The position numbers were made by a program, and so were the translations under genes. Shown piece after piece: positions 1,348 through 40,900 of a stretch of DNA of 64,000 nucleotides. Source of the stretch: Candidatus Zixiibacteriota bacterium (lineage in GTDB: Bacteria > Zixibacteria > MSB-5A5 > GN15 > PGXB01); NCBI GenBank assembly GCA_016933955.1, contig JAFGTT010000028.1, positions 1 to 64,000 of the forward strand, read 5' to 3'. The stretch's first letter is position 1. Each line of letters opens with the position of its first letter. A model generated the notes under the pieces. The model saw nothing but the letters and a program-made list of their open reading frames with translations. It searched no databases and had not been told where the DNA came from.

Positions 1348-1378
1348 ATCGTCCGTTACACTTTAATCCTGCTGTCTA

Positions 1379-4767: not shown

Positions 4768-4795
4768 TATTTAAACTGATCTACCATTGAAACAT

Positions 4796-16691: not shown

Positions 16692-18095
16692 TTATGATTC
16701 GTCATTGATGGAATTTCTCGGCTGATTGACTGAAATTTTGTATTCGCGGATTTTGGAATAAAGAAAACGGCGATGAATCTGAAGATATCGGGCGGTTTCG
16801 GTTTGATTCCAGTTGTTGTTTTTCAGGGCCGATATTATTAAATCTTTTTCAATATTGGCCAGTATTTTTTTCAGAGGAATTCCGCGTTTGAGATGTTCCT
16901 CTAAAGCCTGGTTCACCTGCATACCTTTGGCGAAGATGGGGAGATCGTCAATGGTGATAACATTTTCCCGGGCCATGACAATGGCGCTGTGAATGGTATT
17001 CTCCAGTTCCCGGACATTCCCCGGCCACGAATACATAAGAAGTTTTTCCATCTCTTTGTACGGTACCACAAGATTTTTATCCGGGCTGAATTTCTGCAGA
17101 AAATGTTTGATCAATAACGGAATATCCTCTTTCCGTTCGACCAGCGGAGGAAGATTTATTCTGATGACATTCAGCCGGTAGAAAAGGTCCTCTCGCAAAC
17201 GCCCCTCCTTGACCTCCATCTCCACATCACGATTGGTGGCCGCAATAATTCGGACATCGACATGAACAGGTTCTTCACCGCCGACCCGGTAGAAGGATTT
17301 CTGCTGAAGCACTCGCAATAACCGGACCTGAAGTGATGGCGGCATGGAATTAATTTCATCCAGGAAAATAGTCCCACCATCGGCCAGTTCAAATTTTCCC
17401 TGCCTCCGGGCAATGGCCCCGGTGAAAGAGCCTTTTTCATGTCCGAAAATTTCGCTTTCCAGAATACTTTCGGCGAAGCCGCCGCAGTTGATTTTTATGT
17501 AGGGTCGATGTTTCCGAAGGGAGTGCCTCTGAATGGCATCGGCGATCATCTCCTTGCCGGTCCCGCTTTCACCCTGAATCAGGACAGTGGCATCCGAAGG
17601 TGCCACTCGTCCGATCAACTTGAAAATCTCTTTCATCTGCGGGCTGGCCCCGATGATTTGGGTATCATCATTGTCCGGGATGGATGATACTTTGTTCCTC
17701 AGTTCCCGGACTTCATCCAGCAGTTCCGAAAATTCCAGGGCCCGTTCGATAATCAATAAGAATTCATCGAGTTCGAAAGGCTTTTCAAGATAATCATAGG
17801 CCCCGGCTTTCATGGCCTGGATAGCTCGCTCGCTGGTGCCGTAGGCGGTAAAAACGATAATCGGCAAATCAGGCATTATTTTTTTAATTTCCTTAAGCGC
17901 CGTCAGACCATCCATACGGGGCAGATTTATATCGAGCAAAATGATATCGGGTTTGTGTTCCCGGACTCTGTCAACAGCTTCACGGCCGTCCTCGGCCTCG
18001 ATCGTATGACATTCACGGGAAGAAAGCAGGTCGATGATATTCTTTCTCATGAAAGCTTCATCATCGACGATAAGAATGGTTTTATTTTTTATCAT
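16692..18095 (-). CDS. NtrC-family sigma-54-dependent response regulator
   Basis: The start is ATG 18095 after AAAGGAAA, giving 467 residues and overlapping the kinase by 14 bases; an upstream Met at 18188 would add 31 residues of non-homologous sequence. The receiver domain has D55 (LLDINLPRMDG). The AAA+ domain has Walker A (GESGTGKE, 175-182), a GAFTGA loop as GSFTGA (222-227) and GGTIFLDEIN. A Fis-type helix-turn-helix (NQTETARYLQIHRRFLYSKI) ends the protein. All motifs needed to activate sigma-54 promoters are intact, unlike in the regulator at 7071. The most likely targets are its own operon and the divergent poly-glutamate cluster. Confidence 0.9.
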   Translation of the reverse strand: MIKNKTILIVDDEAFMRKNIIDLLSSRECHTIEAEDGREAVDRVREHKPDIILLDINLPRMDGLTALKEIKKIMPDLPIIVFTAYGTSERAIQAMKAGAYDYLEKPFELDEFLLIIERALEFSELLDEVRELRNKVSSIPDNDDTQIIGASPQMKEIFKLIGRVAPSDATVLIQGESGTGKEMIADAIQRHSLRKHRPYIKINCGGFAESILESEIFGHEKGSFTGAIARRQGKFELADGGTIFLDEINSMPPSLQVRLLRVLQQKSFYRVGGEEPVHVDVRIIAATNRDVEMEVKEGRLREDLFYRLNVIRINLPPLVERKEDIPLLIKHFLQKFSPDKNLVVPYKEMEKLLMYSWPGNVRELENTIHSAIVMARENVITIDDLPIFAKGMQVNQALEEHLKRGIPLKKILANIEKDLIISALKNNNWNQTETARYLQIHRRFLYSKIREYKISVNQPRNSINDES

Positions 18096-19644
18096 TTTCC
18101 TTTTCCTGATGGCCGGTGGTGATCGGGATCTCGATAGTACACAGAGTACCCTGTTCTTCGGTCGAGAAAAATCTGATTTTACCTCCATGAGCCTTGATTA
18201 TTTCATAAGAAATCGATAATCCCAGCCCGAATCCTTTATCTTTGGTGGTGAAAAACGGATCAAAAACGTTTTGGAGGATGTTGTCAGGAATCCCGGTTCC
18301 GTTATCCCGAATTAAAATACGAACAACACCGGCTTTCCGTTCATACTCCGTTTTGATCTGCACCAACCCGGAACCGGAAATGGCCTCTCTGGAGTTGTTA
18401 ATGATGTTTATGAAAACCTGTTCCACGGCGTTTGAATCCAGCAGAATATCCGGCAGTTCAGGATCGAAATCGGTTTCTATTTTCACATCGAATTTCCCAC
18501 CCCTGGTTTCCAGGAGCAGAATGGTATGATGAAGCAGGTCATTAATATTGGTTTTCCTTAAGTTTTCGGATTTCGGCTTGGAGAAAAACAGGAGGCGCCG
18601 GACCAAATCGGAAAGCCGGTCGATTTCGCGGACCACCAGTTTAAGCGATTCCTCGGTCACACCGTTTTTGGGATCACCGACAGTTTTATTGGATAATATG
18701 TTCTGTTGCCACATCTGGATACGGGTCTTGATAATGGCCAGGGGCGTTTTGACCTCGTGGGCAACCCCGGCAATCAGTTTTCCCAGTGAGGCCATTTTTT
18801 CTTTCTGATGCAACTCCCGCTCCAGTTGTTCACGGCGGCGATGTTCCTCGCCGAGAGCCTTGACCATCATATTGATTGATCGACCAATATAGCCCAATGA
18901 CCCTCGGTACTCGGTAACTTCGTGAGCTACACCGGTTTTGACTATTTCGAGATCTTCATGAATTCTCAATATTTTCTTACGTTGTGAGACTGAAATGAAA
19001 ACGGCAATGATAAAACCCAAGAGTGATATGACAGCGCCAATATTTATAACCTGGCGGAGTCTCAGGGTTGGCAATTCCCGCTCGATATGAATCCGGGCCC
19101 AGAGCGCTCCGATTGATTCGCCGTTGATAATTATCGGTTCCGTGGCCAGCGGGAAAATGGCCGGATCGAATTTGTGCAGCTCGACCATCGATCGGGCGGA
19201 GTCGATTGTCTCCATGACCTGGTTCTTTATAATATTGTATGATCTCGGTGGCGGGCCGAAAGCTGGAATCGGCGGTGGCGAGGTGGGAAAAGCATAGCCG
19301 TAAAACTCATCAAAATCTCTGAAAAAGAATCCTCCCTCCATTCCTCTGGCGTGCGAGAGAACCGCAGTTGATATGATTTTTAGCCGCCGATCCATTTTAT
19401 TCATGTCGGCCACACTGGGATTGCCCACCCGAAAGAAATTTTCGTTGACAAGACTGTCAATGACATCGCGCGAAGATTCATTGAGTTGTTTAACTATGAC
19501 CTCTGTCAGAGTTCGGTTGGTTTCAACAATATCATTTTTCCACTGGTTGATGGACATAAATATTAAAAAGGAAATGATGGCAACCACGGCGCTGAAAAGA
19601 GTGGCATATAGTATCGCCCGGACATGTATTTTAAAAAACTTCAT
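18082..19644 (-). CDS. Membrane sensor histidine kinase paired with the NtrC regulator
   Basis: This 520-residue kinase has transmembrane helices at about 9-30 and 196-216 around a periplasmic sensor domain of about 165 residues, a HAMP-like linker (about 217-275), HisKA with H296 (GVAHEVKTP) and HATPase (FINIINNSREAI, DNGTGIPDN, GFGLGLSISYEI). The start follows GAGGGAG. It is transcribed ahead of its regulator and divergently from the poly-glutamate cluster, so it may sense an envelope or nutrient cue linked to that polymer. The ligand is unknown. Confidence 0.9.
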   Translation of the reverse strand: MKFFKIHVRAILYATLFSAVVAIISFLIFMSINQWKNDIVETNRTLTEVIVKQLNESSRDVIDSLVNENFFRVGNPSVADMNKMDRRLKIISTAVLSHARGMEGGFFFRDFDEFYGYAFPTSPPPIPAFGPPPRSYNIIKNQVMETIDSARSMVELHKFDPAIFPLATEPIIINGESIGALWARIHIERELPTLRLRQVINIGAVISLLGFIIAVFISVSQRKKILRIHEDLEIVKTGVAHEVTEYRGSLGYIGRSINMMVKALGEEHRRREQLERELHQKEKMASLGKLIAGVAHEVKTPLAIIKTRIQMWQQNILSNKTVGDPKNGVTEESLKLVVREIDRLSDLVRRLLFFSKPKSENLRKTNINDLLHHTILLLETRGGKFDVKIETDFDPELPDILLDSNAVEQVFINIINNSREAISGSGLVQIKTEYERKAGVVRILIRDNGTGIPDNILQNVFDPFFTTKDKGFGLGLSISYEIIKAHGGKIRFFSTEEQGTLCTIEIPITTGHQEKENDKK

Positions 19645-19726
19645 GTCTCCCTCAACAGGAAAGCCCCCGTTCTAATAAGTCAATTACAGTTATTTTCATC
19701 GGACCATTATATACGATAAATAAGTA

Positions 19727-19743
19727 ATCAATTCCTGTGCCAA
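19727..19743 (-). promoter_or_regulatory. Candidate sigma-54 promoter for the kinase/regulator operon
   Basis: On the minus strand the bases read TTGGCACAGGAATTGAT. The -24 box is perfect; the -12 box is TTGA instead of TTGC. It lies 83 bases before the kinase start. Confidence 0.35.
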
Positions 19744-19896: not shown

Positions 19897-19913
19897 TTGG
19901 CATAAATTTTGTT
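19897..19913 (+). promoter_or_regulatory. Candidate sigma-54 promoter for the poly-glutamate cluster
   Basis: TTGGCATAAATTTTGTT keeps the TTGGCA of the -24 box and correct spacing, but the -12 box is TTGT rather than TTGC. It lies about 133 bases before the first gene of the cluster. Confidence 0.35.
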
Positions 19914-20045
19914 GTTTATATTATCAGGCCATATAAATTAGAAGGTTTTGGCAGTTTTTTTACTACACTGCGTTATGAAAGGTCCCGGCCCCATAAAGTC
20001 TTTAATTTGAAGTCAAGAATTTTGTCATTTTACGGAGGATGGGCT

Positions 20046-21890
20046 TTGAAAAAATTCTCTTATTTAAAATTCAGCATCTTTGCCTTATTCCTATCCACTC
20101 TGGTTTTTCTGATAATTTCATGTGATCGTTTGTTTGTGACGGATGGGGATTCGGATGAAGGGTTGCTGAAACACGGTGGGTATATCTACTTCGTTGATAA
20201 CGAAAATCTCGAATTAGTAATGCTCGACCGGAATCTTGTTACCCTGAAAACCTGGGATGTCAAACCGTTATTCGGTGAAACCAGACTGCAGGGTATCACC
20301 TTTGACGGAACCGATCTGTGGTTATCAGCCGCAGGTGATTATGACCTGATTGTCCAGATTGATGCCAGCAGTGATTCTCTGATTGTCCTGCGGTCTTTCG
20401 ATGCCCCGCCGAACGGGCGGGGGACAATTCGGGATATGACCTGGGACGGCACTAACTTATGGGCGGTTAACAGCGGTTCATCCACCTATAATTTCGCCCC
20501 GACCCTGTATAAAATGGATCCAGAAAACGGCAGTCTTCTGGATTCTTTTATTTTACCATCTCCCGAGCCGCGAGCTATAGCCTATGTCGGTGCCAACGGT
20601 GATGTTTACGGTCGAAGTATGGCAGTGGGGATATACTACGGCGACGTCGAGAAGGACTCGATTTTTGTTTTTATGACGGAAAAAAGGATGTTCGACAAGG
20701 TCTTCGCTTCGCCTGTCCCGCTCCGAGGGGAGGACTATATTTTCCCGGTCGGTTTGGCTTATGATGGCGCCGATTTCTGGGTGATTAACAGCAGTAGCGC
20801 CGGGGATCAACTCTATCGGCTTGATTATCGGGGAAATATCCTGGATATGATTGAACTTCCCTTTGTCACCCCCGGACCGATTGTCTGGGCCGATTTTGAT
20901 GTCAGGAATCCCAATCCTCCAGCTGTTCTGGCCGTTTCACCCAACTCCGGATCGCGGGGTATGAATTTTAGCGTGACTGTCATCGGCAGTGGTTTTATTC
21001 CCGGAACCGGTCTTGATGTTTCTTTCGGTGAGGGTATAACCGTTTCGAATATCACCTTTATTGATGGCGATAATCTGGAGGTCGATATTGAAATCGCGGT
21101 CGATGCGGCCTTCGGATCCCGCGATGTTACGGTTATCAATCCCGATGGTCAGTCGGGAACAGGCAGTGCCCTGTTTACCATTTCCACCATCGACCCGCTG
21201 GCCGGGTACATCTGGATGGCCAATGCTGAAAATGATTCTTTGTATAAAATAAAGGTTCTGGATTCCACTATTGTCCAGGTGTGGGATATTCTGGGCGTTG
21301 CTCCCGGCGGCTCATCGCAAGGCTTGGCCTTTGATGGCACCAATATCTGGATGAGCGACGGCGGCACCAACGATAAAATTATCAAGCTCAATACCGGCGG
21401 GGCGACCCTGTCGATATTGAAATCGATCACCGCGCCGCCCAATGCCGAGGGGACTATCCGCGAAATAGCGTTCGATGGTACCGATCTCTGGGCTTGCAAC
21501 AGCACCACAGCGCAGATTTATAAAATAGATACTGCCAGCGGCGCCCTTCTTGATTCCGTGCCGACACCCGGCAGTGAAGCCCGGGGCATTGTGTTTGCCA
21601 ATGGTGAGTTGTATTGCAACGATCGAACCATAGACTCGGTTTTTGTTTACAGCTTCGACACGCAAACCTGGACGGCTGTTTTCTCAACTCCGATCCCGCC
21701 CAACGGAGATGAAGGGAATCGTTATGCCACCGGCATGTCATGGGACGGTGTCAATTTCTGGATTGCCAACAGCACCTATGAATTCGATTACATTTTCCAG
21801 GTGACGGTCAACGGGACGGTACTCAGAACATACGATGTTCCTGATCAAGGTGATGCCCAGCCATCCGGAATCGTATTCACGCAGGACTGA
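20046..21890 (+). CDS. Lipoprotein with beta-propeller and IPT/TIG domain
   Basis: The start is set to the TTG at 20046, 7 bases after GGAGG; a TTG at 20007 has no such site. The protein (614 residues) begins with a lipoprotein signal (KKFSYLKF..., lipobox FLIISC). Two propeller-like halves carry repeats of the form GITFDGTDLWLS and GLAFDGTNIWMS, with an IPT/TIG Ig-like domain between them (VSPNSGSRGMNFSVTVIGSGF). It is the first gene of the plus-strand cluster, with the next gene starting 10 bases after its stop. It may bind polymer or peptides at the cell surface; no enzymatic residues are recognised. Confidence 0.75.
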   Translation: MKKFSYLKFSIFALFLSTLVFLIISCDRLFVTDGDSDEGLLKHGGYIYFVDNENLELVMLDRNLVTLKTWDVKPLFGETRLQGITFDGTDLWLSAAGDYDLIVQIDASSDSLIVLRSFDAPPNGRGTIRDMTWDGTNLWAVNSGSSTYNFAPTLYKMDPENGSLLDSFILPSPEPRAIAYVGANGDVYGRSMAVGIYYGDVEKDSIFVFMTEKRMFDKVFASPVPLRGEDYIFPVGLAYDGADFWVINSSSAGDQLYRLDYRGNILDMIELPFVTPGPIVWADFDVRNPNPPAVLAVSPNSGSRGMNFSVTVIGSGFIPGTGLDVSFGEGITVSNITFIDGDNLEVDIEIAVDAAFGSRDVTVINPDGQSGTGSALFTISTIDPLAGYIWMANAENDSLYKIKVLDSTIVQVWDILGVAPGGSSQGLAFDGTNIWMSDGGTNDKIIKLNTGGATLSILKSITAPPNAEGTIREIAFDGTDLWACNSTTAQIYKIDTASGALLDSVPTPGSEARGIVFANGELYCNDRTIDSVFVYSFDTQTWTAVFSTPIPPNGDEGNRYATGMSWDGVNFWIANSTYEFDYIFQVTVNGTVLRTYDVPDQGDAQPSGIVFTQD

Positions 21891-21900
21891 GGTGAGAGAT

Positions 21901-23193
21901 ATGGAGAAATTTAGCAGAATATACATTCCGATAATCGTGACCCTCCTTTTAATCCTCGGGTCAAGTGAGGAGATATTAGCCCAGGTCAATTTCAGCGGCG
22001 ATTTCCGTTTGCGGGCCTACAGCGATCATTTTTATAATGATCAGGATGGCCGCGGCAATGAAAATTATATCCGCCACCTGGCCAGAATACGGGCAAAAAT
22101 CCAGGCCAACCGGAATACCTTCTTTTATACCGAACTGATCACCTGGACTCAGGATAATCCCCTGTCGCCGGTGCGGAATATTTCCGGGACGGGCCGGATG
22201 CAGTACGGTATCAGCCAGGTATTCGCCGAAATCATGTTCCCCGATCTGCCGTTTTTCGATCTGGTTCGCTTACGGGCCGGTCGCCAGCAATTTCCCATCG
22301 GCAATGGGCTTTCCATGGGTGAATCATATTATTTCTTCGACAAATTCGACGGTGTCCGTCTGGATATGGCTTGGCAGGAATACAGCCTGTCCCTTTTCGG
22401 AGCCATTACCGGACAGAATGTCAGCGCCAGCGGCCTGTACCCCGATCCCGGTTCCGACCAGATTTATATCGCCCGGCTTTCCCGGCCGATCTTAAATCAG
22501 GATGTGATGACGTATTACATTTATAACAAACTGCGCGGCGATTTCAATGATAGCTATATCTGGGGCGGTGGTGCCAGCGGCGATTTTATGGCCGGGCACC
22601 TGGATTATTTTGTGGAGGGCGCCGGTCAATGGTTCAATACTCTTGACGGGCTTCCGGATAAAGGCGGACTTGGCTATATGGGCGGTATCAGCTACCGCTG
22701 GTCATGGGGACCATTTCATTCGATAAAGGCCGAAACCAGGTATGCCGCCTATCAGGGTGATGATATCGATACACCTGATATCGAAACATTCAGCCCTCTT
22801 TATCCGAGCTTTTTCTGGGGCAGTCGAGTTGGTTATGTCAACGGAGCGATCGGCGGCGATTTCCCTTACAACGGAAGAAATCCCGAGGGTAGTCGGATAT
22901 TGTACACCCGTCTTTATGTTATCCCTTCGAAAATTCCGGCATTGCGAATCCAATTGCAGTATTTGAATGTCGGCGAGTATGTGGATAACGATGATTACAA
23001 CTCCATGGATGATGAATTTTCCTTAATGTTTTATTACGAGCTTTCCAAACAGGCGCGACTGCAGTTTCGCTTTGCCCGCAATATTCCCAATGAATATGAA
23101 GATAGAGATGTGAATGAAAGCGGGCAAGTATCATGGTCGGAAGATCGGATCAGCATGTCCCGATTTATGACGGAAATTCAGGTTGTTTTTTAG
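21901..23193 (+). CDS. Outer-membrane porin, alginate-export-like beta barrel
   Basis: The start is ATG 21901 after GAGGTGAG, giving a signal peptide ending in ILAQ and a 430-residue mature-size barrel. The sequence starts VNFSGDFRLRAYSDHFYND and is dense in alternating aromatic strands; the central LRAGRQQFPIGNGLSMGESYYFFD resembles the alginate export (AlgE/OprD-like) family. It ends in a C-terminal Phe (EIQVVF), as expected for barrel assembly. Position directly after the lipoprotein and before the TRAP permease suggests a channel for an anionic substrate, possibly the polymer or its fragments. Confidence 0.8.
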   Translation: MEKFSRIYIPIIVTLLLILGSSEEILAQVNFSGDFRLRAYSDHFYNDQDGRGNENYIRHLARIRAKIQANRNTFFYTELITWTQDNPLSPVRNISGTGRMQYGISQVFAEIMFPDLPFFDLVRLRAGRQQFPIGNGLSMGESYYFFDKFDGVRLDMAWQEYSLSLFGAITGQNVSASGLYPDPGSDQIYIARLSRPILNQDVMTYYIYNKLRGDFNDSYIWGGGASGDFMAGHLDYFVEGAGQWFNTLDGLPDKGGLGYMGGISYRWSWGPFHSIKAETRYAAYQGDDIDTPDIETFSPLYPSFFWGSRVGYVNGAIGGDFPYNGRNPEGSRILYTRLYVIPSKIPALRIQLQYLNVGEYVDNDDYNSMDDEFSLMFYYELSKQARLQFRFARNIPNEYEDRDVNESGQVSWSEDRISMSRFMTEIQVVF

Positions 23194-23235
23194 AAGTTAG
23201 GCTGTCATGGCAATAATTAAGGATAGACTGAGTAG

Positions 23236-24501
23236 ATGAGTCGTGAGCTGATAATATTGCTGGTAATGCTGGGTATCTTTGCGCTCGGTGTTTTCAAGCT
23301 CAAGTTACCGGCCGGGATTGCGCTGATGCTCTCGGCTGTAGCCGGGGCGCTGACCGGAGGGGAAGGAATTCCGGTCAGGCACCTTGTCGAAGGCGGGTTC
23401 GGTTTTTTCGAAGCCATACTTATTATTACCACGGCCATGATATTTATGAAGATGGTCAATGCTACCGGGGCGCTGGGAACAATCAGCTATACTCTTATCA
23501 AATCCCTGTATCGCTGGCCGACAATCCTGATGATCGTTATTGTCATCTTTATCATGTTTCCCGGGATGCTGACCGGGTTATCATCGGCCTGTATCCTGAC
23601 TACCGGAGCGCTGGTGGTCCCGGGACTTCTCGCCATGGGTATGCCGCGGCTGGCTGTCGGGTCGTTTATCGCCATGGCCGCCGTTTACGGTGAAGTGGCA
23701 CCACCGATTTGTATCCCGGTGATGCTGATCGGTGGCGGCGTCGATATGCCGTACATCGGATTTAACAAACCGCTGTTCATCGCATCCTTCCCGATTGCAA
23801 TCGTAACCGCGGTTTTTTACAGGTATCGCTACCTCAACGGATTCAGTATTGACGAGGTTCTGGCCCAGTTGAAACCGCCGGTTTATAAGCGGCACGGTCT
23901 TAAGCTCTTTATTCCCCTGGCATTTGTTATTTGTTACATGATTCTGGAACAGACTATCCCGAGCTATATTCCTCACCTGGGAGTTCCGTTAACCTTCATG
24001 ATCGGCGCTCTGTTTAGCTTCGGAACCGGAGAGAAATTCAATTTCCTGAATATATCCCGGGAAGCCATTCGCGACGCTTTGCCGGTCGTGGCGATTCTGG
24101 TCGGGGTGGGGATGTTTCTCCAGATCATGACCCTGACCGGCGTTCGGGGTTATCTGGCTACCAGCGCCCTGTATCTGCCCGAGAGCGCCAAGTACCTGGC
24201 CGCCATGATCATGCCTTTTTTCGGATCGGCTTATGCCTCGGCCTCGGTTATCGGTGTTCCACTGGTTTACGTGTTCATTGGCAAAAACGCCATTGTTGTC
24301 ACCGCGGCCCTGGCATTGATGGCGGCGATGGGCGATATGATGCCCCCGCCGTCGCTACTGTGCGCCTATGCCGCTCAAATGGTCAAAGAGAAAAATCATT
24401 TCAAGATATTGAGAGCAAGTATCATCCCTATTGCTCTGACCATGCTGGTGGGACTGTTGCTGATAGTCTTCGCCGGCGAACTGGCAACGGTGTACTTCTG
24501 A
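23236..24501 (+). CDS. dctM: TRAP transporter large permease, DctM-like
   Basis: This 421-residue protein has about 12 hydrophobic helices and the DctM pattern, including LPAGIALMLSAVAG near the start, FPGMLTGLSSACILTTG, and GEVAPPICIPVMLIGGG. DctM uses a sodium gradient to import carboxylates such as dicarboxylates or glutamate delivered by a periplasmic binding protein. Neither the binding protein (DctP) nor a normal small permease (DctQ) is present in the window, so it is an orphan or uses a non-standard partner. The 48-residue protein just downstream could be that partner, though it has far fewer helices than DctQ. Confidence 0.87.
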   Translation: MSRELIILLVMLGIFALGVFKLKLPAGIALMLSAVAGALTGGEGIPVRHLVEGGFGFFEAILIITTAMIFMKMVNATGALGTISYTLIKSLYRWPTILMIVIVIFIMFPGMLTGLSSACILTTGALVVPGLLAMGMPRLAVGSFIAMAAVYGEVAPPICIPVMLIGGGVDMPYIGFNKPLFIASFPIAIVTAVFYRYRYLNGFSIDEVLAQLKPPVYKRHGLKLFIPLAFVICYMILEQTIPSYIPHLGVPLTFMIGALFSFGTGEKFNFLNISREAIRDALPVVAILVGVGMFLQIMTLTGVRGYLATSALYLPESAKYLAAMIMPFFGSAYASASVIGVPLVYVFIGKNAIVVTAALALMAAMGDMMPPPSLLCAYAAQMVKEKNHFKILRASIIPIALTMLVGLLLIVFAGELATVYF

Positions 24502-24515
24502 GTTTGAGGTGAATT

Positions 24516-24662
24516 ATGTTATACTGGATATACGTATTAATAACCCTGTTTCTCTCGATTATTATTATCATCGAGTTGTTTTCGGAAAAACAATGGAAGA
24601 AGCAGATTGCCCTGGCCATGGTACTGCTTCCCTTTGTACTGAGGATTCTTCAAATTAAGTGA
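24516..24662 (+). CDS. 48-residue small membrane protein
   Basis: An ATG after GAGGTG opens 48 codons encoding two hydrophobic segments, about 2-20 (MLYWIYVLITLFLSIIIII) and 31-46 (IALAMVLLPFVLRIL), joined by a charged loop (SEKQWKKQ). It lies 14 bases after the permease stop and 7 bases before the next gene, so it is in the operon. Such spacing and a good ribosome binding site support a real gene. Its role, perhaps as a subunit of the orphan permease, is unknown. Confidence 0.65.
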   Translation: MLYWIYVLITLFLSIIIIIELFSEKQWKKQIALAMVLLPFVLRILQIK

Positions 24663-24669
24663 GTAGCGG

Positions 24670-25800
24670 ATGATGCAGAGACACCATATAACAGCCGTGA
24701 TAATCCTGGGTATTATGGCTCTGGCAGGCGGGCTGGCGTCTGCGGATTTTCTGGATATGTACCGTCCGATCGATGTATATCCGTCATCGGGTTTGACCGG
24801 AATCGGGAATCTAAGCGATTATTTGCCTTCAATTAAGGGAACGCAGGCCGATACCAAAATATATTTCTTCGACAGCGGCCATCCCGGAGGGACGGCTTTA
24901 TTACTGGGCGGGACTCACCCCAACGAACCGGCCGCTTTTCTGGCGGCTGTGATGGTCCTGGAAAATGTTATGATTGATAAGGGAAGAATTCTGGTTATCC
25001 CTCAAGCCTGCCGGAGTGGCTTCACCTGCACTGATCCATTCGAAGCCTATCCTCAGGATTACACAATAACCACTCCCACCGGGCCAAGGCGGTTTCCGTT
25101 CGGTTCGCGGGTAGCAAACCCGCTCGATCAGTGGCCGGATCCTCTGGTGTACTCCCACTATCCCTCCGGACAGCGTCTCTCAGGTTTTGAGACCAGGAAT
25201 CTGAACAGATCCTATCCCGGCCGGCCCAATGGCACCTTTTCGGAGAAACTCGGTTATGCCATCATCCGGTTAATTGAAATGGAAAATGTCGATATTGCTT
25301 TCGACTTGCATGAGGCGGCCCCGGAAATACCCATAATCAATGCCATTGTCTATCATGAAAAAGGCGAGGATATTGCCCTGAGCGCCGTCCTTGAGCTGGA
25401 ATTCGAGGGCTTGCGTTATTCCCCGGAAATGTCGCCGATAAACTTCCGCGGTTTAAGCCACCGGGAGTGGGGAGATCACACCAAGGCGATTCCATTTCTA
25501 ATGGAAACCAGCAATGTTATCCAGGGGCGCTTGCGCGGTAAAACCAATACCGATTTGATTATCAAAGGAGAAAGCCCCCGGTATCGGGAAGCCCTTGAAT
25601 CCGGCGCCCTGAGAATCGAGTATGATCCCGATGGTCAACCGGTGGAAATGAGAGTGGGGCGACATGTTCAAGGATTTAGGGCTTTGATATCTGCTTATAA
25701 TGAATATTACCCGGAGAAACCGGTTGAAATAAAAAACCTGCCCTCATTTTCCGAAATGATGGAAAAGGGGGTAGGGTATTACTTGAGTGAAAAAAAGTAA
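24670..25800 (+). CDS. Secreted succinylglutamate desuccinylase/aspartoacylase-like zinc enzyme
   Basis: This 376-residue protein has a signal peptide (about 1-25). The M14-type zinc site is visible: H83 and E86 (GGTHPNEPA) and H214 (FDLHEA), with the substrate-binding NLNRSYPG at 177-184 and a later METSN. The AstE/AspA family cleaves acyl groups or amide bonds from amino acids such as N-succinylglutamate. Export is unusual for the family and, beside a gamma-glutamyltransferase and poly-glutamate synthase, suggests a carboxypeptidase or amidase on glutamate peptides. The second Met at 24673 is an equal start. Confidence 0.82.
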   Translation: MMQRHHITAVIILGIMALAGGLASADFLDMYRPIDVYPSSGLTGIGNLSDYLPSIKGTQADTKIYFFDSGHPGGTALLLGGTHPNEPAAFLAAVMVLENVMIDKGRILVIPQACRSGFTCTDPFEAYPQDYTITTPTGPRRFPFGSRVANPLDQWPDPLVYSHYPSGQRLSGFETRNLNRSYPGRPNGTFSEKLGYAIIRLIEMENVDIAFDLHEAAPEIPIINAIVYHEKGEDIALSAVLELEFEGLRYSPEMSPINFRGLSHREWGDHTKAIPFLMETSNVIQGRLRGKTNTDLIIKGESPRYREALESGALRIEYDPDGQPVEMRVGRHVQGFRALISAYNEYYPEKPVEIKNLPSFSEMMEKGVGYYLSEKK

Positions 25801-25821
25801 CTGGAATCCAAGGAGAATAAT

Positions 25822-26379
25822 ATGCGCACATCGCTTAAATTAACAGGTTTGTTGATTGCCCTGCTGTCTCTGGTTATTTCGGCGGCGGCCCAGGAGACGC
25901 CGCCGAAATTCCAGCAACCGATTTTAATATCATCCGCCGGCCAGAGTGCCGACATGAAATTGATCGAAAAACTGGCGGGTAAAGAAAAACTCGAGACCAA
26001 AGCCGTAAATATGGCACAGCCCTCGGATCTGGATGGGATCAAAACCCTGATTCTGGTTCCGGGTTTCAGCTCCAAAGGCCTCGGGGCCGCCGGGGTAAGT
26101 CAGAACGACGAAATGGCCCGGGTGGAAGTCCTTATCAAGGCCGCCCAGGAGAAGAAAATCGATATTGTCATGGTGCATATCGGTGGAACCGCCAGGAGAA
26201 AAGGCCAGTCGGATGCCTTCAATAAAATCTCCGCCGAGGCTTCGAAACAGATGATTGTCGTCAGTCAGGGTGATGAAGATAAATTTTTCACGAATATTGC
26301 CAAAGAGAAAAATATCCCCATCGAGATCGTGGAAAAAATTATCGATACCGCTGAGCCTCTGGGAAAGCTTTTTAAATGA
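25822..26379 (+). CDS. Secreted DUF6305-like protein
   Basis: This 185-residue protein has a signal peptide (about 1-23) and a Rossmann-like body: QPILISSAGQSADMKLI, then DLDGIKTLILVPGFSSKGLGAAGV, KIDIVMVHIGGTARRKG, QMIVVSQGDEDKFF and IPIEIVEKI. I recognise this as the pattern of a family annotated DUF6305, from memory. No catalytic residues are assigned. It sits between the zinc enzyme and the gamma-glutamyltransferase with a good GGAG site before its ATG, and is presumably a periplasmic binding or accessory factor. Confidence 0.65.
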   Translation: MRTSLKLTGLLIALLSLVISAAAQETPPKFQQPILISSAGQSADMKLIEKLAGKEKLETKAVNMAQPSDLDGIKTLILVPGFSSKGLGAAGVSQNDEMARVEVLIKAAQEKKIDIVMVHIGGTARRKGQSDAFNKISAEASKQMIVVSQGDEDKFFTNIAKEKNIPIEIVEKIIDTAEPLGKLFK

Positions 26380-26386
26380 AGAGAGA

Positions 26387-26407
26387 TGATCCGGAATATC
26401 CGGATCA
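26387..26407 (+). other. Intra-operon hairpin
   Basis: TGATCCGGA-ATA-TCCGGATCA is a perfect 9-base-pair stem with a 3-base loop in the 54-base gap between the DUF6305-like gene and the transferase gene. No T-run follows, so it is more likely an RNA processing or stability element than a terminator. Confidence 0.5.
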
Positions 26408-26433
26408 CGCTTTAATGCGGAGTAAAAACCAAT

Positions 26434-28350
26434 ATGAGTGTGAACCACAGGAAAATATATGACCCCTCGGTAATCCTGCGGCTGATAATTATTCTTATTC
26501 TGGCCGCGGGATCAACTCTGTCTCAGGATGTTCTTCCCGGTAGCGAGATTGCCCGCGGAACGCAGGGGATGGTTGCCACGGCACATCCACTGGCCTCGCA
26601 GGCCGCGCTTGAAATGCTGAAACAGGGCGGTAATGCTGTTGATGCCGCGGTTGCGGCGGCTTTTGCTATCGGAGTTGTCGAACCGGATGGATCAGGTTTA
26701 GGCGGCGGTGGGGGAATGGTGATCTACCTTAACCGGGAAAAAGAATCATACTATATCAATTATTATCAGCGGGCCTCGGAAAATGTCGGCGATATCGATT
26801 ATGATCCCGATAATGATCGTCTGACGGCTAAATCGATTCTGGTTCCCGGAACAGTTGCCGGTCTGACAATGGCTCTGGAGAATTTTGGAACCCTGTCTCT
26901 CAATACCGTCCTTGAACCAGCCATAAGGTATGCCGAAGAGGGTTTTCCTCTGGATAATACCCTGGCCCAGATTCTTCTGGATAACACCAGCCTGGTCGAG
27001 AAGAATCCAGCCACGGCTGAGGTGTTTCTTGAAGAAGGTTTTCCGCGTATGGAAGGAGATACTCTTCGTCAGCCGGGATTGGCCGCCACTCTCAAGGAAA
27101 TTGCCCGGAACGGATGTGACGGTTTTTACAAGGGTCATGTGGCCGAAACCATCGTGGGCGAAATCCGGCGACGCGGCGGGGTGATAACCATGAATGACTT
27201 TAAAAATTACCGGGCCATTCTGACCAAACCGCTGGAGGCGGATTATAGGGGCTACAAAATCATCACGGCCAATGCACCGCAATCGGGCGTCAGTGTTCTT
27301 CAATCGCTCAATATGCTGGAAAGAACCGATTTGGCCAAAATGGGTCATTACAGTCAATCGGCCCGGTCACTGCACCTGATGGCGGAAACCTTCCGGCGAA
27401 GTTACGCCGACCGCTGGACATATCTCGGGGATCCCGAATATATCCATGTTCCGCTCACTGGCATGATTTCGGACCGCTATGCCACCGAACGATTTATGGA
27501 AATCAACCAGTACAAAGCCGATCCCCGGAAATACCGCGAGACAGCCGCCGGTAATCCGGCCAAGTACGATTCCGAAAAAACCGTCGACGATCAAAAAGCA
27601 ATTACACCGGCGACCGATAAAACGTATTTCGATGATGAGAATGAAGAGGGAAAGTCCTCCTATGATGATTGGGGCGAAGATATGTTCGACAGCTGGGGGA
27701 AGAAGAAGAAAAAAGTGCAGTCGGCCGGCTCCGAAAAGACGCCGCCGGGCAATTCCGATACCACGACAAAAACACCGGGATTCGAGGAAGAATTCGATGG
27801 CCACACCACCCATCTGTCGGTGATCGACCGAGCCGGGAACATGGTATCGCTGACCCAGACGCTGGGCACCTTTTTCGGCTCCGGGATAACCGCCGGGGGG
27901 GTTCTGTTGAATTGCGGGATGTCGAATTTCTCCAGGACTTCATTGGCCAATGTCCCTCAACCGGGTAAACAACCGCGTAGTTCCATTGCGCCGACGGTGG
28001 TTTTGAAAAACGATAAACCTTTTATGTTACTCGGTTCACCTGGAGCCAGCCGCATTATTTGTACCGTTGTCGAATTGATCGTCAATGCTATCGATTTCGG
28101 TATGGATATCAACCAGGCCAACCTGGCTCCAAGATTCTATTGCCAGAAATTCGAGGATTACCTTTATCTCGAGAATGGCATCAGTGAAAATGTCCAGAAT
28201 CAGCTTGAGAAAATGGGGCACGCTCTGAAAGTATATAATGCCCGCGACCTGTTTTTCGGTGGGGCACAGTTGATATATATAGATCCCGTGGACGGGATAT
28301 ACTATGGATCGGCCGACATTCGCCGAGGAGGTGTGGCCATAGGATTTTGA
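26434..28350 (+). CDS. ggt: Secreted gamma-glutamyltransferase
   Basis: This 638-residue protein has a signal peptide (about 1-31) and the GGT fold from GTQGMVATAHPLASQAALEML onward, including PDGSGLGGGGG. Autoprocessing should occur before T458 (HTTHLS), the N-terminal nucleophile of the small subunit; downstream LLGSPGASRII forms the oxyanion site. The enzyme transfers or hydrolyses gamma-glutamyl bonds; relatives next to PGA genes act as depolymerase or as anchoring enzyme (PgsS, CapD). Just before T458 lies an unusual insertion at about 385-455, rich in Asp, Glu and Lys (YDDWGEDMFDSWGKKKKK), not typical of the family. Confidence 0.9.
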   Translation: MSVNHRKIYDPSVILRLIIILILAAGSTLSQDVLPGSEIARGTQGMVATAHPLASQAALEMLKQGGNAVDAAVAAAFAIGVVEPDGSGLGGGGGMVIYLNREKESYYINYYQRASENVGDIDYDPDNDRLTAKSILVPGTVAGLTMALENFGTLSLNTVLEPAIRYAEEGFPLDNTLAQILLDNTSLVEKNPATAEVFLEEGFPRMEGDTLRQPGLAATLKEIARNGCDGFYKGHVAETIVGEIRRRGGVITMNDFKNYRAILTKPLEADYRGYKIITANAPQSGVSVLQSLNMLERTDLAKMGHYSQSARSLHLMAETFRRSYADRWTYLGDPEYIHVPLTGMISDRYATERFMEINQYKADPRKYRETAAGNPAKYDSEKTVDDQKAITPATDKTYFDDENEEGKSSYDDWGEDMFDSWGKKKKKVQSAGSEKTPPGNSDTTTKTPGFEEEFDGHTTHLSVIDRAGNMVSLTQTLGTFFGSGITAGGVLLNCGMSNFSRTSLANVPQPGKQPRSSIAPTVVLKNDKPFMLLGSPGASRIICTVVELIVNAIDFGMDINQANLAPRFYCQKFEDYLYLENGISENVQNQLEKMGHALKVYNARDLFFGGAQLIYIDPVDGIYYGSADIRRGGVAIGF

Positions 28351-28378
28351 CATAAGGTCTTTGGAATGAAAAAATAAA

Positions 28379-29533
28379 ATGTATACTCCGTTTGCATTAC
28401 TGCTTTTTCTCATAATTCTGCTTATTTATGAGAGTATTGATATCGATCGAAAAGTAAGCGGTATCAAGACACGGATTCACATCAATGGAACTCGTGGTAA
28501 ATCGAGCATAACGAGATATATTGCCGCAGGGATGCGGGCTTCCGAACAGACCACTATTGCCAAAATAACGGGCGTGCGTCCGACAATAATCGGTCCCGAC
28601 GGCAAAAGCTGTCTGATCAAGCGCCGGGGATGCGCCCGGGTACAGGAGCAATTCACGATTATAAACCGGGCCGCCCGGATGAACGCCGGTTGTCTGGTTC
28701 TGGAATGCATGTCCATACTTCCTGAATACCAGAAGGTAGAAAGCCGAAAATTCCGACCGCATATCTACGTCCTGACCAATATCCTCGATGATCATCGCGA
28801 GAAACTGGGCCGTCAAATTGAGGATCAGGCGGCCGGTATCTGTTCAGCCATTCCTTCCAATACCAGGGTTTTGACGGTTAAAAATGATTATCTGGATACC
28901 ATAAGGAAATACGCTGGAAAGAAAAACAGCCGGGTTATTGTTGTTGATGACCTTGATGGTCAGATTAAAAGTTCCGTACCTGAGGGTGTTTTTCCCGCCA
29001 ATGTGGCCCTGGCTCTGGCGGCCTGTACCGAGGCCGGGGTTAGTCCCAATATAGCCCTGCCGGCGATTCTGGAAGAAGCGGGGATTTCGGGAGAGCGGCC
29101 GATAGATTTGAACCGTTTAGGGTCAAAAGCTCTGTTCATTAATGGATTTGCCGTCAATGATACTCCTTCGGCGGAAAAGTATATCACCTGCTGGCAGAGG
29201 ATGTATCCCCAGTATGAAAATCTTTTTATAATATTCAACAGCCGCGCCGACCGCCCCCTGCGATCGGAGGCTTTTGCTGCATGGATGGGGCGGATACCCG
29301 ATCTGGCGGGAATAATTTTGATCGGTAACCACGCTCCCTATATGAAAAAAACCCTGGTGCATTCGGGAATATCTCCGGCACATATTATGGTCTGGACGAA
29401 AAATGATATTATCAGGGCCGGTGAAAAACTCCTGGAATTAAAAATCAACGATGCCCTGATAGTCGGTCTGGGAAATATCAGCGGTGATGGTTTCAGGGTT
29501 ATCGAAACTCTTGCGGGAGAAATCGGGTCATGA
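28379..29533 (+). CDS. pgsB: Poly-gamma-glutamate synthase subunit PgsB/CapB
   Basis: This 384-residue Mur-ligase-like ATPase has an N-terminal membrane helix (about 4-20), a P-loop NGTRGKSS (36-43, K41), and the family signatures CLVLECMSI and LTNILDDHRE. PgsB activates glutamate as acyl-phosphate and adds it to the growing gamma-linked chain at the inner membrane, together with PgsC. Length matches the family. The start has only a weak ribosome binding site. It overlaps pgsC by 4 bases. Confidence 0.93.
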   Translation: MYTPFALLLFLIILLIYESIDIDRKVSGIKTRIHINGTRGKSSITRYIAAGMRASEQTTIAKITGVRPTIIGPDGKSCLIKRRGCARVQEQFTIINRAARMNAGCLVLECMSILPEYQKVESRKFRPHIYVLTNILDDHREKLGRQIEDQAAGICSAIPSNTRVLTVKNDYLDTIRKYAGKKNSRVIVVDDLDGQIKSSVPEGVFPANVALALAACTEAGVSPNIALPAILEEAGISGERPIDLNRLGSKALFINGFAVNDTPSAEKYITCWQRMYPQYENLFIIFNSRADRPLRSEAFAAWMGRIPDLAGIILIGNHAPYMKKTLVHSGISPAHIMVWTKNDIIRAGEKLLELKINDALIVGLGNISGDGFRVIETLAGEIGS

Positions 29534-29958
29534 TTTACGAATTCTTTTTCATCGGCCTGGTGATCGGTTTTTTGTACTACGAAATGACCGGCATTTCGCC
29601 GGGAGGAGTTGTTCCTCCGGCCTATTTCGCTCTTTATATTCACCAGCCTAATAAAATTATCATGACCCTGGTTCTGGCGGTGGTTGTCTGGCTCGTTATC
29701 GAATGGCTCGGCCGCACGCTGATTGTTTATGGACGGCGCCGCCTGCTTCTGGCTTTACTGCTTGGTTTCTGTCTTAAGCTGGCCATTGAACGCTGGCTAC
29801 AGCCGATCCCGATGATGACTTTCGATTTGCAGTCTATCGGATATATCATCCCCGGCCTGATCGCCAATGAAATGTCAAGACAGAAAGCCGTCCCGACTCT
29901 GGCCTCGCTGGGAATCGTGACTATCCTGATTTATCTGGTGATTTTATTGATACGGTGA
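29530..29958 (+). CDS. pgsC: Poly-gamma-glutamate biosynthesis protein PgsC/CapC
   Basis: This 142-residue integral membrane protein has four to five helices and the PgsC pattern GISPGGVVPPAYFAL near the start, then RTLIVYGRRRLLLALLLG and IIPGLIANEMSRQ. It partners PgsB in synthesis and export. Its ATG overlaps the pgsB stop (ATGA), which implies coupled translation. Confidence 0.92.
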   Translation: MIYEFFFIGLVIGFLYYEMTGISPGGVVPPAYFALYIHQPNKIIMTLVLAVVVWLVIEWLGRTLIVYGRRRLLLALLLGFCLKLAIERWLQPIPMMTFDLQSIGYIIPGLIANEMSRQKAVPTLASLGIVTILIYLVILLIR

Positions 29959-29965
29959 AGCGTTT

Positions 29966-31027
29966 ATGAAAAAGGGTATTGCTCCATACGGTCTCGTGTT
30001 AACCCTGGTAGTGGCGGTGGGGATTCTCATTGTTATTGAACAGTATTTCACCTATTCCACCGCCCATGAAAACGCCCGGCAGATGAACCGCGCGGCCGAT
30101 CTGGCCGCCCGGTGGTTTAATCTGATCGGAGAGCTCAAGGAATCCCGCGGGATTCCTCTGAATAACGCCTTGAATGCCAAATACCGGGCCTTGATCGGAG
30201 ATGATTATACTGATATGACCACCACCCTGGGATCGCTTGAGGCCAAGGAGACATCGGCCAATCCGGATTTTGCGGCCCTGATGGTACGCCTGATGACCGA
30301 GGCCGGGATTGATTCCACCGGAACCGTGGGCGTTACTCTTTCCGGTTCTTTTCCGGCCCTGGGTATCGCCACCCTGGCCGCCATCCAGACCATCGGAGCC
30401 AGGGCAGTGGTTATCAGTTCCCTCGGGGCTTCCACCTATGGGGCCAATCAGCCCGGGGCAACTTGGATTGATATGGAAAAGTGGCTGATTGATAACGGCG
30501 GCCTGAAATATACTTCGTCATTGGTCACTTACGGGGCCGACAATGACAATGCCGGAGGTATTCTGGAGGAGGGTGCGGCCATTATGCGTGATGCCGCCCG
30601 GCGCAATAATTATGAACTCTGGATTCCATCCACCTGGAAGGAATCGATGAATAGAAAAATGTCGATGTTGCTCGATAGCCACATTGCCCTGCTGGTTAAT
30701 ATCGGCGGTAATCAGACATGTCTTGGAACCTGCGCCCATTCTTCGGCTATTCCCGAAGGGTTCCATGCCGACTATTCCGGGTGCGGGGATGTTGATCGAG
30801 GATTGATAGCCCGTCTGGCCGAAAGGAATATACCTTTCATACATCTTCTGAATATAAAAGATTTGGCCTGCCGGTACGGTTTGCCATTGGCTCCCGGCAA
30901 CAGCCTGGCGGTCCCGACCGGATTATATACCACCGGAAAAATATCGAAAGTGGCAGTTGTCGCCGGCCTGGTGATAATAATCCAGATACTGGCTCTTTCC
31001 AATCGTTTGAGTCTTTGCCGGAATTAG
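29966..31027 (+). CDS. pgsW: Poly-gamma-glutamate system protein (PgsW-like)
   Basis: This 353-residue protein has a membrane helix at each end (about 9-27 and 325-345). The middle has an alpha/beta pattern with LSGSFPALGIATLAAIQTIGARAVVISSLGAS, ATWIDMEKWL and LLVNIGGNQTCLG. I recognise it as the family found beside pgsBC in bacteria that lack the usual PgsA; the symbol pgsW is from memory. It starts 8 bases after pgsC. No PgsA/CapA metallophosphatase is present in the window, so this protein may take its place in export or chain release. Confidence 0.8.
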   Translation: MKKGIAPYGLVLTLVVAVGILIVIEQYFTYSTAHENARQMNRAADLAARWFNLIGELKESRGIPLNNALNAKYRALIGDDYTDMTTTLGSLEAKETSANPDFAALMVRLMTEAGIDSTGTVGVTLSGSFPALGIATLAAIQTIGARAVVISSLGASTYGANQPGATWIDMEKWLIDNGGLKYTSSLVTYGADNDNAGGILEEGAAIMRDAARRNNYELWIPSTWKESMNRKMSMLLDSHIALLVNIGGNQTCLGTCAHSSAIPEGFHADYSGCGDVDRGLIARLAERNIPFIHLLNIKDLACRYGLPLAPGNSLAVPTGLYTTGKISKVAVVAGLVIIIQILALSNRLSLCRN

Positions 31028-31120: not shown

Positions 31121-34100
31121 ATGCTAATCCAGTTTGACAATTTGAAAAGCTCCTTCAAACGCATTCGGTCAGGAATGCGCGGATCGATTTTCCTGCTGGC
31201 AAGCATGATGCTGTTAAGCACAAGCCTGTTTGGACAGGTGCAGATTTCCGGCGATATCACCGCCCATATGGACAGTGTTATCAACCTGGCCATCGGTGAT
31301 ACCCCTCAGGATCTCTATGCGGCACCGAGCGCCGCCCAGGAAACCACCTGGCGGGGAATTATCCAGGACATTCTGGATGGCGACTATGTTTCGGCCCATT
31401 CCGGGGCCGGGACGCTCGATTATCGGGTGGTCGAATTCACCGATGTATCATCAAAAGTATTCTATATTCTCGAAAGAACTCCCTCGGCAACATCGAATTT
31501 CTGGGGGACTTTTGTTTTCAATCCCGAACCGCGCCGGCCCAATCTGGTAATTCAATGCCCGCATCCGGTCCAGAATCTCAATACCGGTAATCAAGGCTTT
31601 CGGGTTTTCACGGTGGCCAATGCCCTGGCTTTTTTTGTCGCCGGGACTCATAAATGCAACACAACCACCTTCTCGCCCTGCAGTGGTACTTCGACGTCAT
31701 GTTCGGTCGATCCGGAATCGTACCGCAGTTGCGATCAGGCGCATATCGTTAACGGGACCTTTCAATTTACCACCGAGGAGCTGCTGGATTATGATTCCGA
31801 ATTGATTTTTATCCAGCCCCATGGTTATACCCCTGAAACCGGGGAACCGGATATCGTTATAAGTAACGGTACAAAATTTTATCCGGCAGTTGATTATCTT
31901 CCCGACCTGAGAGATAATCTATACAATATCGATAACAGCCTGACTTTCAAAATCGCTCATATCGATGACTGGGGTAATGACATCGGACAGACCAACGTCC
32001 AGGGCCGCCTGATCAACAATACCGGTGATCCCTGTGCGGACAATGCTACCTCTACAACCGGCCAATTCATACACCTGGAACAGAAATATGCCGGTCTTCG
32101 CGATACGGAAAACAACTGGTACAAGCTGGCGAACGCCATTGTTTTGACTTTTCCCCTTGAGAATGGTCAGGTTACTTCGGCCCAATCCGGTTCCTGGAAT
32201 GATAATGCCACCTGGGAAGGCGGTCAAATTCCGACCTCGGATGATGATGTTTTAATCGCGGCCGGGCATACTATCACGGTTGATGATCTTACCGCCGAGT
32301 GCCATTCCGTTTTGTTCGGAGACACTTCGTCGCACATTGATATGGATGCCAGCAGCCGTTTGAGTGTATATGGTGACTTTACGCTCTTTAATGAACTCCA
32401 TAATGTTTTTTCGGCCGGCTGGTCGGCTACCGATGCCAAAATTTATTTCACCGGCTTTGAGCCCCTTCAGACTCTGAGTGGCTGGAGTACCACCGGCGGT
32501 TCGACTTCATTCCGCGATGTCGTTATCGACAAATCGTCGGGGAAAGTCGTTACCGGCGGGACCGGTATGCGTCTGGGTGTTCAGAACAGCCTGGAAGTAC
32601 TCAGCGGGACGCTGGAACTGTCGGCCGATGATGATCTCGAAGCGCGCTGGGCATCCAGCGGTCTGCTCACCGGAAACCAGAACCTGACCATTGATATTAC
32701 GGCCGATGGTCATTTCCTTCTGTTCGACGGCGATGGGACCCATTTTATCCGCAGTGATACGGGGTCGGTTCCGATCGGCAAGATGACCGTATATGGCGAG
32801 GTGCAGTTGTACGATGCCAGTTCTTATGATATAAACATAAACAATGTCGATGTTAAAAGCGGCGGAATTCTGGAGCTGGGAACCGGCCTCGGCAGTACTA
32901 CCTACGGCCCGGAATTCAATCCCGGTACTATTACCGTCGAATCCGGTGGTGAAATTCTCAACCAGAGCTCGACCGACATCTGGTTCGATACCTCATCCGT
33001 CATCTTGAATACCGGGGCCACCTATAAAACGGCCAGCAGTACGACAATTTATCCTCCGACCTTTGTTAACAACGGCAAGGTGCGGTACCAGAGAGATCCC
33101 GCGGTGGAAACCAACGACCAGATTGTAGTTGACACCAATTATTATGATATTGAATTAAGTTTCAACGGTAACGGCACCAAAAAGGCATGGAGCTTTCTTG
33201 GCGATCGGAGTGTCAATGACAGCCTGACTATTAATAATGATGCCGAACTGCTTCTAACCGCTGATGATGAACAGACTCTTACGGTAAACAATACTATCCG
33301 TCTGACCAGCGGTTCGATCGACAACAGCGACCCTGATATTACCCTGGCGGTTGGCGATGGCGCACTCATTTCCCGTGCCACCGGGACTTTGGCCGAGGCG
33401 CCGACATTTATGGGCGGGGTCGATGTCCGTTATACCAGTACGACCGCCTCGGTCACCACCGGTCCGGAACTGCCGACTTCATCATCGGCCCTGAACAGCC
33501 TGACCATATATTCCACCGACCAGACAGTAACGTTGGGCAGCGATATTGTGGTCAATGAAACGCTAACACTGTCTACGGGGACATTCGATAACGATGGTGT
33601 CGATGACGATTTTTCAATGACAATGGCCGAGGGATCGACCGTCCGGCGGGCGGCGGCGGAACTCACCACTGCTCCTATTTTCGACAACAGCGTTAATGTC
33701 GAATATATCAGCAATTATTACCATGTTTCGACGGGATATGAAATCCCGACTGCCTCCGGTATCCTTAAGGACTTTACCATCAGTGGTGATCACGGAGTGA
33801 CATTATCACATAATATGACCGTTAACAGGACGATGACTATCAGCGGCAGCGCCCTTAACACCGAGAGCTACACCGTGACCCTGGCTTCCGGGGTAAGCCT
33901 AGTGGAGGAAAATGGTTTTACCGTGCGCGGTAATCTGACCACAACGCGTACTCTGAGTCAGTCGGTCAACAATAATCTCGGTGGTATCGGAGTGGAAATC
34001 AATGCCACCGGCGGCGCTCCCGGCGCCACAACCGTTTTGCGGGTTACCGACGATCCCCCTAGCATCGGCTCGGTTCAGGGTATTTCCCGCTATTTTGATA

Positions 34101-38081: not shown

Positions 38082-38252
38082 GGATCGGTCCGGATAATGG
38101 TTATGAAAATGATTGCATATACTCAAATAGAGCGGTTTCTCCGATGTTATTCCGTTCCGGCAGGATCGCCGCAAGAATTTTGTACATACACAATTCGGTT
38201 CAATAGGATATAAATTATTACGTGTCACAATTTGTAGCATAGGAGGTCTTTG

Positions 38253-40831: not shown

Positions 40832-40900
40832 ACAAGTGCGTTTGGGGCGTTAAAGACTTATAATAAGATGAAAATGTTGAAAATGTCATGGAGCAATGTG

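Follow-up and report, generated by a model that had tools for sequence, protein, structure and literature searches.

The window analysed here comprises the first 64,000 nucleotides of contig JAFGTT010000028.1, from a Candidatus Zixiibacteriota bacterium (GCA_016933955.1). At 20046-31027 on its forward strand lies a run of ten genes, with intergenic gaps of -4 to 54 bases, that ends in the poly-gamma-glutamate (gamma-PGA) synthesis genes pgsB, pgsC and pgsW and begins with genes for predicted surface, uptake and degradative proteins. An initial annotation had described it as a ten-gene gamma-PGA synthesis and recovery cluster, and the gene coordinates bear out the number, order and close spacing of the genes. 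Its extent had been drawn too narrowly, however, as conserved partner genes flank the run on both sides and the system spans approximately 16692-41926. Recurrence of the block in at least four phyla of bacteria makes it probable that this is a genuine, largely undescribed system and not a group of chance neighbours. The ten genes are:

20046-21890, +, exported lipoprotein in which propeller-like repeats surround a TIG-like domain (lipobox LIISC-D; DUF6923, 27.1 bits)
21901-23193, +, predicted outer-membrane beta-barrel, porin-like (signal peptide, length, weak matches of relatives)
23236-24501, +, DctM-like membrane permease without DctP/DctQ partners (PF06808, 29.9 bits, cut-off 23.8)
24516-24662, +, membrane protein of 48 amino acids beside DctM, present in all module loci
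24670-25800, +, secreted M14/AstE-AspA-type zinc hydrolase (PF24827, AstE_AspA_cat, 26.7 bits, cut-off 25)
25822-26379, +, exported DUF6305 protein (PF19823, 160.7 bits), with a predicted single Rossmann-like alpha/beta domain
26434-28350, +, exported gamma-glutamyltransferase (GGT)-family enzyme with an altered donor pocket (TIGR00066, 456 bits, cut-off 357.85)
28379-29533, +, PgsB, poly-gamma-glutamate synthase (TIGR04012, 262 bits, cut-off 222.7)
29530-29958, +, PgsC (TIGR04011, 122 bits, cut-off 96.5)
29966-31027, +, PgsW, poly-gamma-glutamate system protein, taking the position of PgsA (TIGR04332, 291 bits, cut-off 100)

The family assignments made initially for PgsB, PgsC, the PgsW-like protein, GGT and DUF6305 well exceed the curated cut-offs. 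The suggested zinc deacylase and orphan tripartite ATP-independent periplasmic (TRAP) permease are weaker matches that nevertheless lie above theirs, and neither DctP nor DctQ families were found among the cluster proteins. PgsB/CapB and PgsC/CapC, the proteins required by the CapsuleFinder definition of a PGA capsule (PMC5542703), are both present over cut-off (TIGR04012 and TIGR04011). As the initial annotation had noted, PgsA/CapA, an accessory component of that model, is not among the cluster proteins scanned; the rest of the genome was not searched for PgsA. A search of PgsW against PDB sequences gave no match. The proposed "anionic-type" substrate class of the porin, on the other hand, is weak: the window protein matched no family in library scans, and its relatives gave an Alginate_exp match of 0.013 and DESULF_POR1 matches of 2e-5 to 3e-5, the latter under the family cut-off. 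The family match of the lipoprotein is likewise uninformative as to function.

Recurrence of the cluster across phyla

We surveyed 567 genomes, of which 132 belong to the phylum of the window, 40 to that of a Calditrichota metagenome-assembled genome (MAG), and 395 to that of a MAG titled Bacteroidetes (here the Bacteroidota-like phylum), and counted matches over cut-off to the PgsW (TIGR04332) and DUF6305 profiles. PgsW was found in 37 genomes and DUF6305 in 17, with both in 15 (Fisher test, 9e-18, uncorrected for relatedness). The two genomes with DUF6305 and no PgsW are G169 (1.7 Mb), which has a partial PgsB match, and G329, in which no PgsB match was found genome-wide. A unit comprising DctM, the 48-residue protein, the M14 enzyme and DUF6305 (the module) is present at every DUF6305 locus. 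GGT and pgsBCW accompany it in most, with pgsBCW usually following GGT directly. All of these genes occur together in the phylum of the window, in Calditrichota, in the Bacteroidota-like phylum, and in Cetobacterium (Fusobacteriota).

The full ten-gene order, including the lipoprotein and the porin, is found in two same-order relatives and also in G142 and G416, which represent the other two surveyed phyla. A lipoprotein gene occupies the equivalent place in seven loci, and in G475 two G8-type genes sit between the porin and DctM. The upstream genes therefore accompany pgsBC in several phyla, so the refuting outcome named in the initial annotation, their absence beside pgsBC elsewhere, did not occur, and the upstream edge of the run is marked by a sigma-54-like site and divergent regulators. 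The earlier suggestion that they form one system is thus supported. A simple promoter and terminator scan found no clear break within the ten genes. Three of the loci were obtained from a contig search with the window's PgsW protein as the sole query. Most relatives are draft MAGs; the ggt gene of G142 is split between frames, and the G173 sequence is partly masked.

Two variants without the synthesis genes are informative. The G329 cluster encodes regulators, a hydrolase-like protein of the X11 type described below, the lipoprotein, the porin, DctM, the 48-residue protein, a racemase-like protein, the M14 enzyme, DUF6305, a formylglutamate-amidohydrolase-like protein and an altered GGT, so that the degradation and uptake half is present in a genome with no PgsB match. 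In a second copy in G133 (G133:C2, locus L076, 5500-10462), DUF6305, DctM, the 48-residue protein and the M14 enzyme are followed by a secreted C69 peptidase, and there are no pgs genes. These two clusters suggest that the genes for uptake and degradation constitute a module able to stand alone.

In the PgsW tree, all 22 rows lacking the module group in a single clade (100/99), and none of the 16 module-linked rows falls within it. Phyla are intermixed among the module-linked rows, a pattern compatible with horizontal transfer. PgsBCW loci that lack the module, as found within the window's phylum, have two other conserved secreted genes downstream of PgsW (L026 13631-16792 and relatives). The second of the two is a likely beta-barrel, and together they may form a distinct export pair of the outer membrane.

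A gamma-glutamyltransferase subtype with an altered donor pocket

The cluster GGT retains the nucleophile motif TTH, with its catalytic Thr, and does not retain the canonical donor-site residues. In the window enzyme and 13 relatives, the positions of E. coli R114 and D433 are occupied by Tyr and Asn, respectively, and the position of G484 by Ala in 11 of these 14 cluster GGTs, including that of the window. Canonical Arg and Asp are found in the second GGTs of G172 and G140 and in the Cetobacterium cluster GGT, while the second GGT copy of G133 retains the Arg and has Asn for Asp. In E. coli GGT, the D433N substitution abolishes transpeptidation and leaves 82% of hydrolysis, and adding Y444A and G484A to it makes the enzyme more active as a cephalosporin acylase (PMC8062742). 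By analogy with the E. coli D433N enzyme, which keeps hydrolysis and loses transpeptidation, the altered cluster GGT is likely to be mainly hydrolytic. It represents a natural subtype carrying changes that suppress transpeptidation when engineered into E. coli GGT.

Secreted hydrolases and an exported racemase-like protein

Four further genes follow PgsW, with wider gaps of 93-168 bases, which makes their co-transcription with the first ten less certain. X11 is our label for a secreted hydrolase-like domain that has no Pfam family and is common to two of them:

31121-36736, +, secreted protein with an X11 hydrolase-like domain, then G8 repeats and a dockerin (X11 alignment; G8 53.2 bits, Dockerin_1 31.1 bits)
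36834-38081, +, secreted X11 hydrolase-like domain with a dockerin (AlphaFold2 model, predicted local distance difference test [pLDDT] 83.9, predicted template modelling score 0.86)
38250-40757, +, secreted G8 and dockerin protein, with related genes in several clusters
40868-41926, +, exported lipoprotein, glutamate-racemase-like (TIGR00067, 68.6 bits)

The M14 enzyme within the ten-gene run has the hallmarks of succinylglutamate desuccinylases and aspartoacylases, namely the zinc ligands HxxE and H and a catalytic Glu; H83, E86, H214 and E279 are kept in 19 relatives, and AstE-type deacylases were matched in a sequence search against PDB. X11 relatives lie within or adjoining most clusters in all three surveyed phyla, some of them next to PgsW. 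In the Bacteroidota-like sample, X11 was found in 8/8 DUF6305-positive genomes and in 17/387 others, so it is linked to the module and not exclusive to it. Foldseek searches with the X11 model matched M14 carboxypeptidases, N-formylglutamate amidohydrolase and a phage gamma-PGA hydrolase with probabilities near 1. His133, His219 and Glu306 are invariant in the X11 alignment and, judged from their conservation, are candidate zinc or catalytic residues. On the strength of the predicted fold, X11 is read as an M14-like hydrolase, for which gamma-PGA is a possible substrate.

Six cohesin-domain matches occur elsewhere in the genome of the window, and the dockerin-bearing X11 proteins may therefore dock to surface scaffolds. 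Five module loci (those of G329, G416, G475, G133 and G266) also have exported N-formylglutamate-amidohydrolase-like genes within them or nearby (L069 10373-11293 and relatives).

Both catalytic cysteines of glutamate racemases (CNT and C-[TS]-H motifs) are present in 7/7 racemase-like members from seven loci, and most relatives begin with a signal or lipoprotein sequence. As the genome also holds a separate full-scoring glutamate racemase elsewhere, the exported copy is not the sole one and is probably not the peptidoglycan enzyme.

The DctM unit

The 48-residue protein has a near-invariant C-terminus (PFVLRILxIK). An analogy with CapE was considered and dropped as the main reading of this protein, since its gene comes after DctM at almost all loci, the second G133 copy without pgs genes among them. 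The AlphaFold2 model of the DUF6305 protein (pLDDT 90.4) consists of one small Rossmann-like domain; the Cetobacterium row was left out of the corresponding fold alignment. Identification of DUF6305 as a TRAP solute-binding protein was unsupported, given this single small domain and structure matches that were weak and mixed.

Regulators and sigma-54-like sites

Upstream of the ten genes and divergent from them is a two-component pair, separated from the run by an intergenic region with two sigma-54-like sites:

16692-18188, -, NtrC-type response regulator with receiver, sigma-54 activation and Fis-type helix-turn-helix domains (Sigma54_activat 236, Response_reg 113.5, HTH_8 46 bits)
18082-19644, -, membrane-bound sensor histidine kinase whose sensor region is probably periplasmic (HisKA and HATPase_c)
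19726-19743, -, sigma-54-like site TTGGCACAGGAATTGATT ahead of the kinase gene and facing it (nine loci, combined p 1e-5)
19897-19914, +, sigma-54-like site TTGGCATAAATTTTGTTG ahead of the operon, with similar sites in relatives

The kinase and NtrC-type regulator keep this divergent orientation to the operon at ten loci of three phyla, counting that of the window. An operon-facing site was found in 9/9 loci with short intergenic regions; individual p values are 0.005-0.18 under two null models, and the combined p is 1.5e-6 to 9e-5. The kinase-facing site is missing from some of the nine. A stricter sigma-54 pattern has three matches in the window, two of them within this intergenic region. 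Elsewhere, a near-consensus sigma-54 site (GTGGCACGGCAATTGCAA) is found at 8552 (+), between a second kinase/regulator set at 4787-8436 and the gene for a secreted lectin/dockerin protein (8698-11586), upstream of the latter. A type II CRISPR system is represented at 427-4489 (-) by Cas1 and a Cas9-like protein (RuvC_III, HNH_4, Cas9 alpha-helical lobe). Scanning the window for Rfam families and tRNAs gave no matches.

Comparison with known systems

Like the pgsBCA(E)/capBCADE loci of Bacillus, which CapsuleFinder classes as PGA systems, the cluster has PgsB and PgsC homologues and a GGT-family enzyme. It differs from them in having PgsW instead of PgsA, an altered GGT pocket, and the addition of the DctM unit, DUF6305, M14-type enzymes, the exported racemase-like protein and the sigma-54 two-component pair. 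With TRAP transporters (DctPQM) it shares a DctM-family permease over the Pfam cut-off, but DctM is adjoined here by the 48-residue protein and DUF6305 rather than by DctP and DctQ. The predicted fold of X11 resembles that of the PghP phage gamma-PGA hydrolases (21dc, E 2.8e-4, probability 1.00; also a viral PGA hydrolase). The likeness is one of fold; family scans found no PF05908 (PghP) sequence match in X11, and the X11 proteins are dockerin-bearing secreted proteins of a cellular genome.

A cultured counterpart is on plasmid p1 of Cetobacterium somerae, where eight core families (GGT, DUF6305, DctM, the small protein, M14, PgsB, PgsC and PgsW) are contiguous and named gene by gene by the Prokaryotic Genome Annotation Pipeline. 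Upstream of ggt are genes for a response regulator and for an ATP-binding protein resembling a kinase, just as regulators accompany the cluster in the window. The plasmid differs in its permuted gene order and canonical GGT residues, and the lipoprotein, porin, X11 and racemase-like genes were not found in the 30-kb stretch. Polyglutamate production has been reported for another member of the Fusobacteriota, Fusobacterium nucleatum (Candela 2009, as cited in PMC3815933).

Literature searches with open-access coverage (subscription papers lay outside it) found nothing on the combined module, no paper using DUF6305, and "pgsW" only in unrelated papers. The combined cross-phylum module thus appears to be undescribed, as the initial annotation had supposed of the gene combination, although a reserve role of gamma-PGA is described for Bacillus, where GGT is reported to break the polymer down as a late store of nitrogen (PMC8062742).

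A proposed cycle of gamma-polyglutamate synthesis and recovery

On balance, we consider it probable that the cluster is a regulated system that makes extracellular gamma-polyglutamate and recovers its glutamate. PgsB, PgsC and PgsW would polymerise cytoplasmic glutamate and export the chain, which secreted hydrolases of M14-type fold (X11, the AstE-like enzyme and, in some relatives, the formylglutamate-amidohydrolase-like enzyme) would then shorten. The altered GGT, predicted to be mainly a hydrolase, would free glutamate, and the exported racemase-like protein could interconvert D- and L-glutamate outside the cytoplasm. DctM and its 48-residue partner, possibly aided by DUF6305, would bring glutamate or short gamma-glutamyl fragments back into the cell, and the membrane kinase and NtrC-type activator would turn the set on via sigma-54. 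The polymer itself may serve as a reserve or a matrix; the reusable store or shared good suggested by the initial annotation is likewise a possible role. The synthesis, trimming and re-import envisaged by the initial annotation therefore stand as the best reading, now backed by the exported racemase-like protein, the secreted M14-fold hydrolases and the formylglutamate-amidohydrolase-like enzymes. The sequences themselves establish the gene content and its linkage across phyla, the kept catalytic residues, the export signals and the sigma-54-like sites; the polymer chemistry and substrate, the direction of transport, racemisation outside the cytoplasm and the physiological role are what we infer. 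A fuller version, in which a cross-phylum regulated set builds, degrades, racemises and re-imports gamma-polyglutamate, DctM with its 48-residue partner and DUF6305 replaces DctQ and DctP, and a GGT subtype has been re-tuned for hydrolysis, is a tentative proposal that we would judge slightly more apt to fail than to hold.

Several observations weigh against the synthesis-and-recovery reading. The cluster DctM is a distant member of its family, and its glutamate or gamma-glutamyl substrate is putative. Several clusters have neither porin nor lipoprotein, and X11 is also found in genomes without the module, its Foldseek matches having low TM-scores (0.29-0.47). The racemase-like protein scores under the TIGR00067 equivalog cut-off (68.6 versus 146.65 bits). 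Three Calditrichota loci depart from the compact arrangement: pgsBCW is oriented divergently to the module at two of them and is ~145 kb distant at the third (G173). Finally, R114 of ordinary GGTs binds the alpha-carboxylate of the substrate, and since gamma-PGA keeps its alpha-carboxylates, the loss of this residue is not simply explained by a polymer substrate.

The polymer could instead be a capsule or matrix which the GGT and zinc enzymes only trim, release or anchor, with the DctM unit importing outside glutamate for synthesis rather than recycling. The GGT-family enzyme CapD does anchor and trim the Bacillus capsule (PMC8062742), and CapsuleFinder counts PGA systems, found in many phyla and common in Fusobacteria, as capsules (PMC5542703). 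Anchoring is nonetheless a poor fit to a GGT carrying D433N, a change that abolishes transpeptidation in the E. coli enzyme, and the exported racemase-like protein and several hydrolase families exceed what trimming would need. The pgs-free G329 cluster retains GGT, M14, X11 and DctM, while PgsBCW loci without the module bear two other conserved secreted genes. We regard this explanation as unlikely, if still worth weighing.

It is improbable, in our view, that the module mainly scavenges gamma-PGA or gamma-glutamyl compounds of other organisms, the synthase being linked yet separate in function. Sigma-54 two-component control suits nutrient uptake in general, the G329 cluster occurs without PgsB, and in the second G133 copy, which has no pgs genes, a C69 peptidase accompanies DctM, the 48-residue protein, M14 and DUF6305. 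Yet G329 is the only one of the 17 DUF6305 genomes with neither a PgsW nor a PgsB match, and pgsBCW immediately follows GGT in most loci. That this branch of PgsB/C/W makes short oligomers or gamma-glutamylated acceptors, to which the hydrolases are tuned, rather than a long polymer would suit a GGT donor pocket with neither canonical glutamate contact and the separation of module-linked PgsW rows from the clade that holds the other PgsBCW type, but it is very unlikely given PgsB and PgsC scores over the equivalog cut-offs for gamma-PGA synthase.

Gamma-polyglutamate is known chiefly from Bacillus, with few demonstrated producers beyond it. If synthesis and recovery of the polymer are indeed combined in this system, a conserved block in at least four mostly uncultured phyla would make gamma-PGA a widespread extracellular pool of glutamate, and roles would be gained for DUF6305, PgsW and an unnamed family of secreted hydrolases. 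The hypothesis is directly testable in the cultured relative Cetobacterium.

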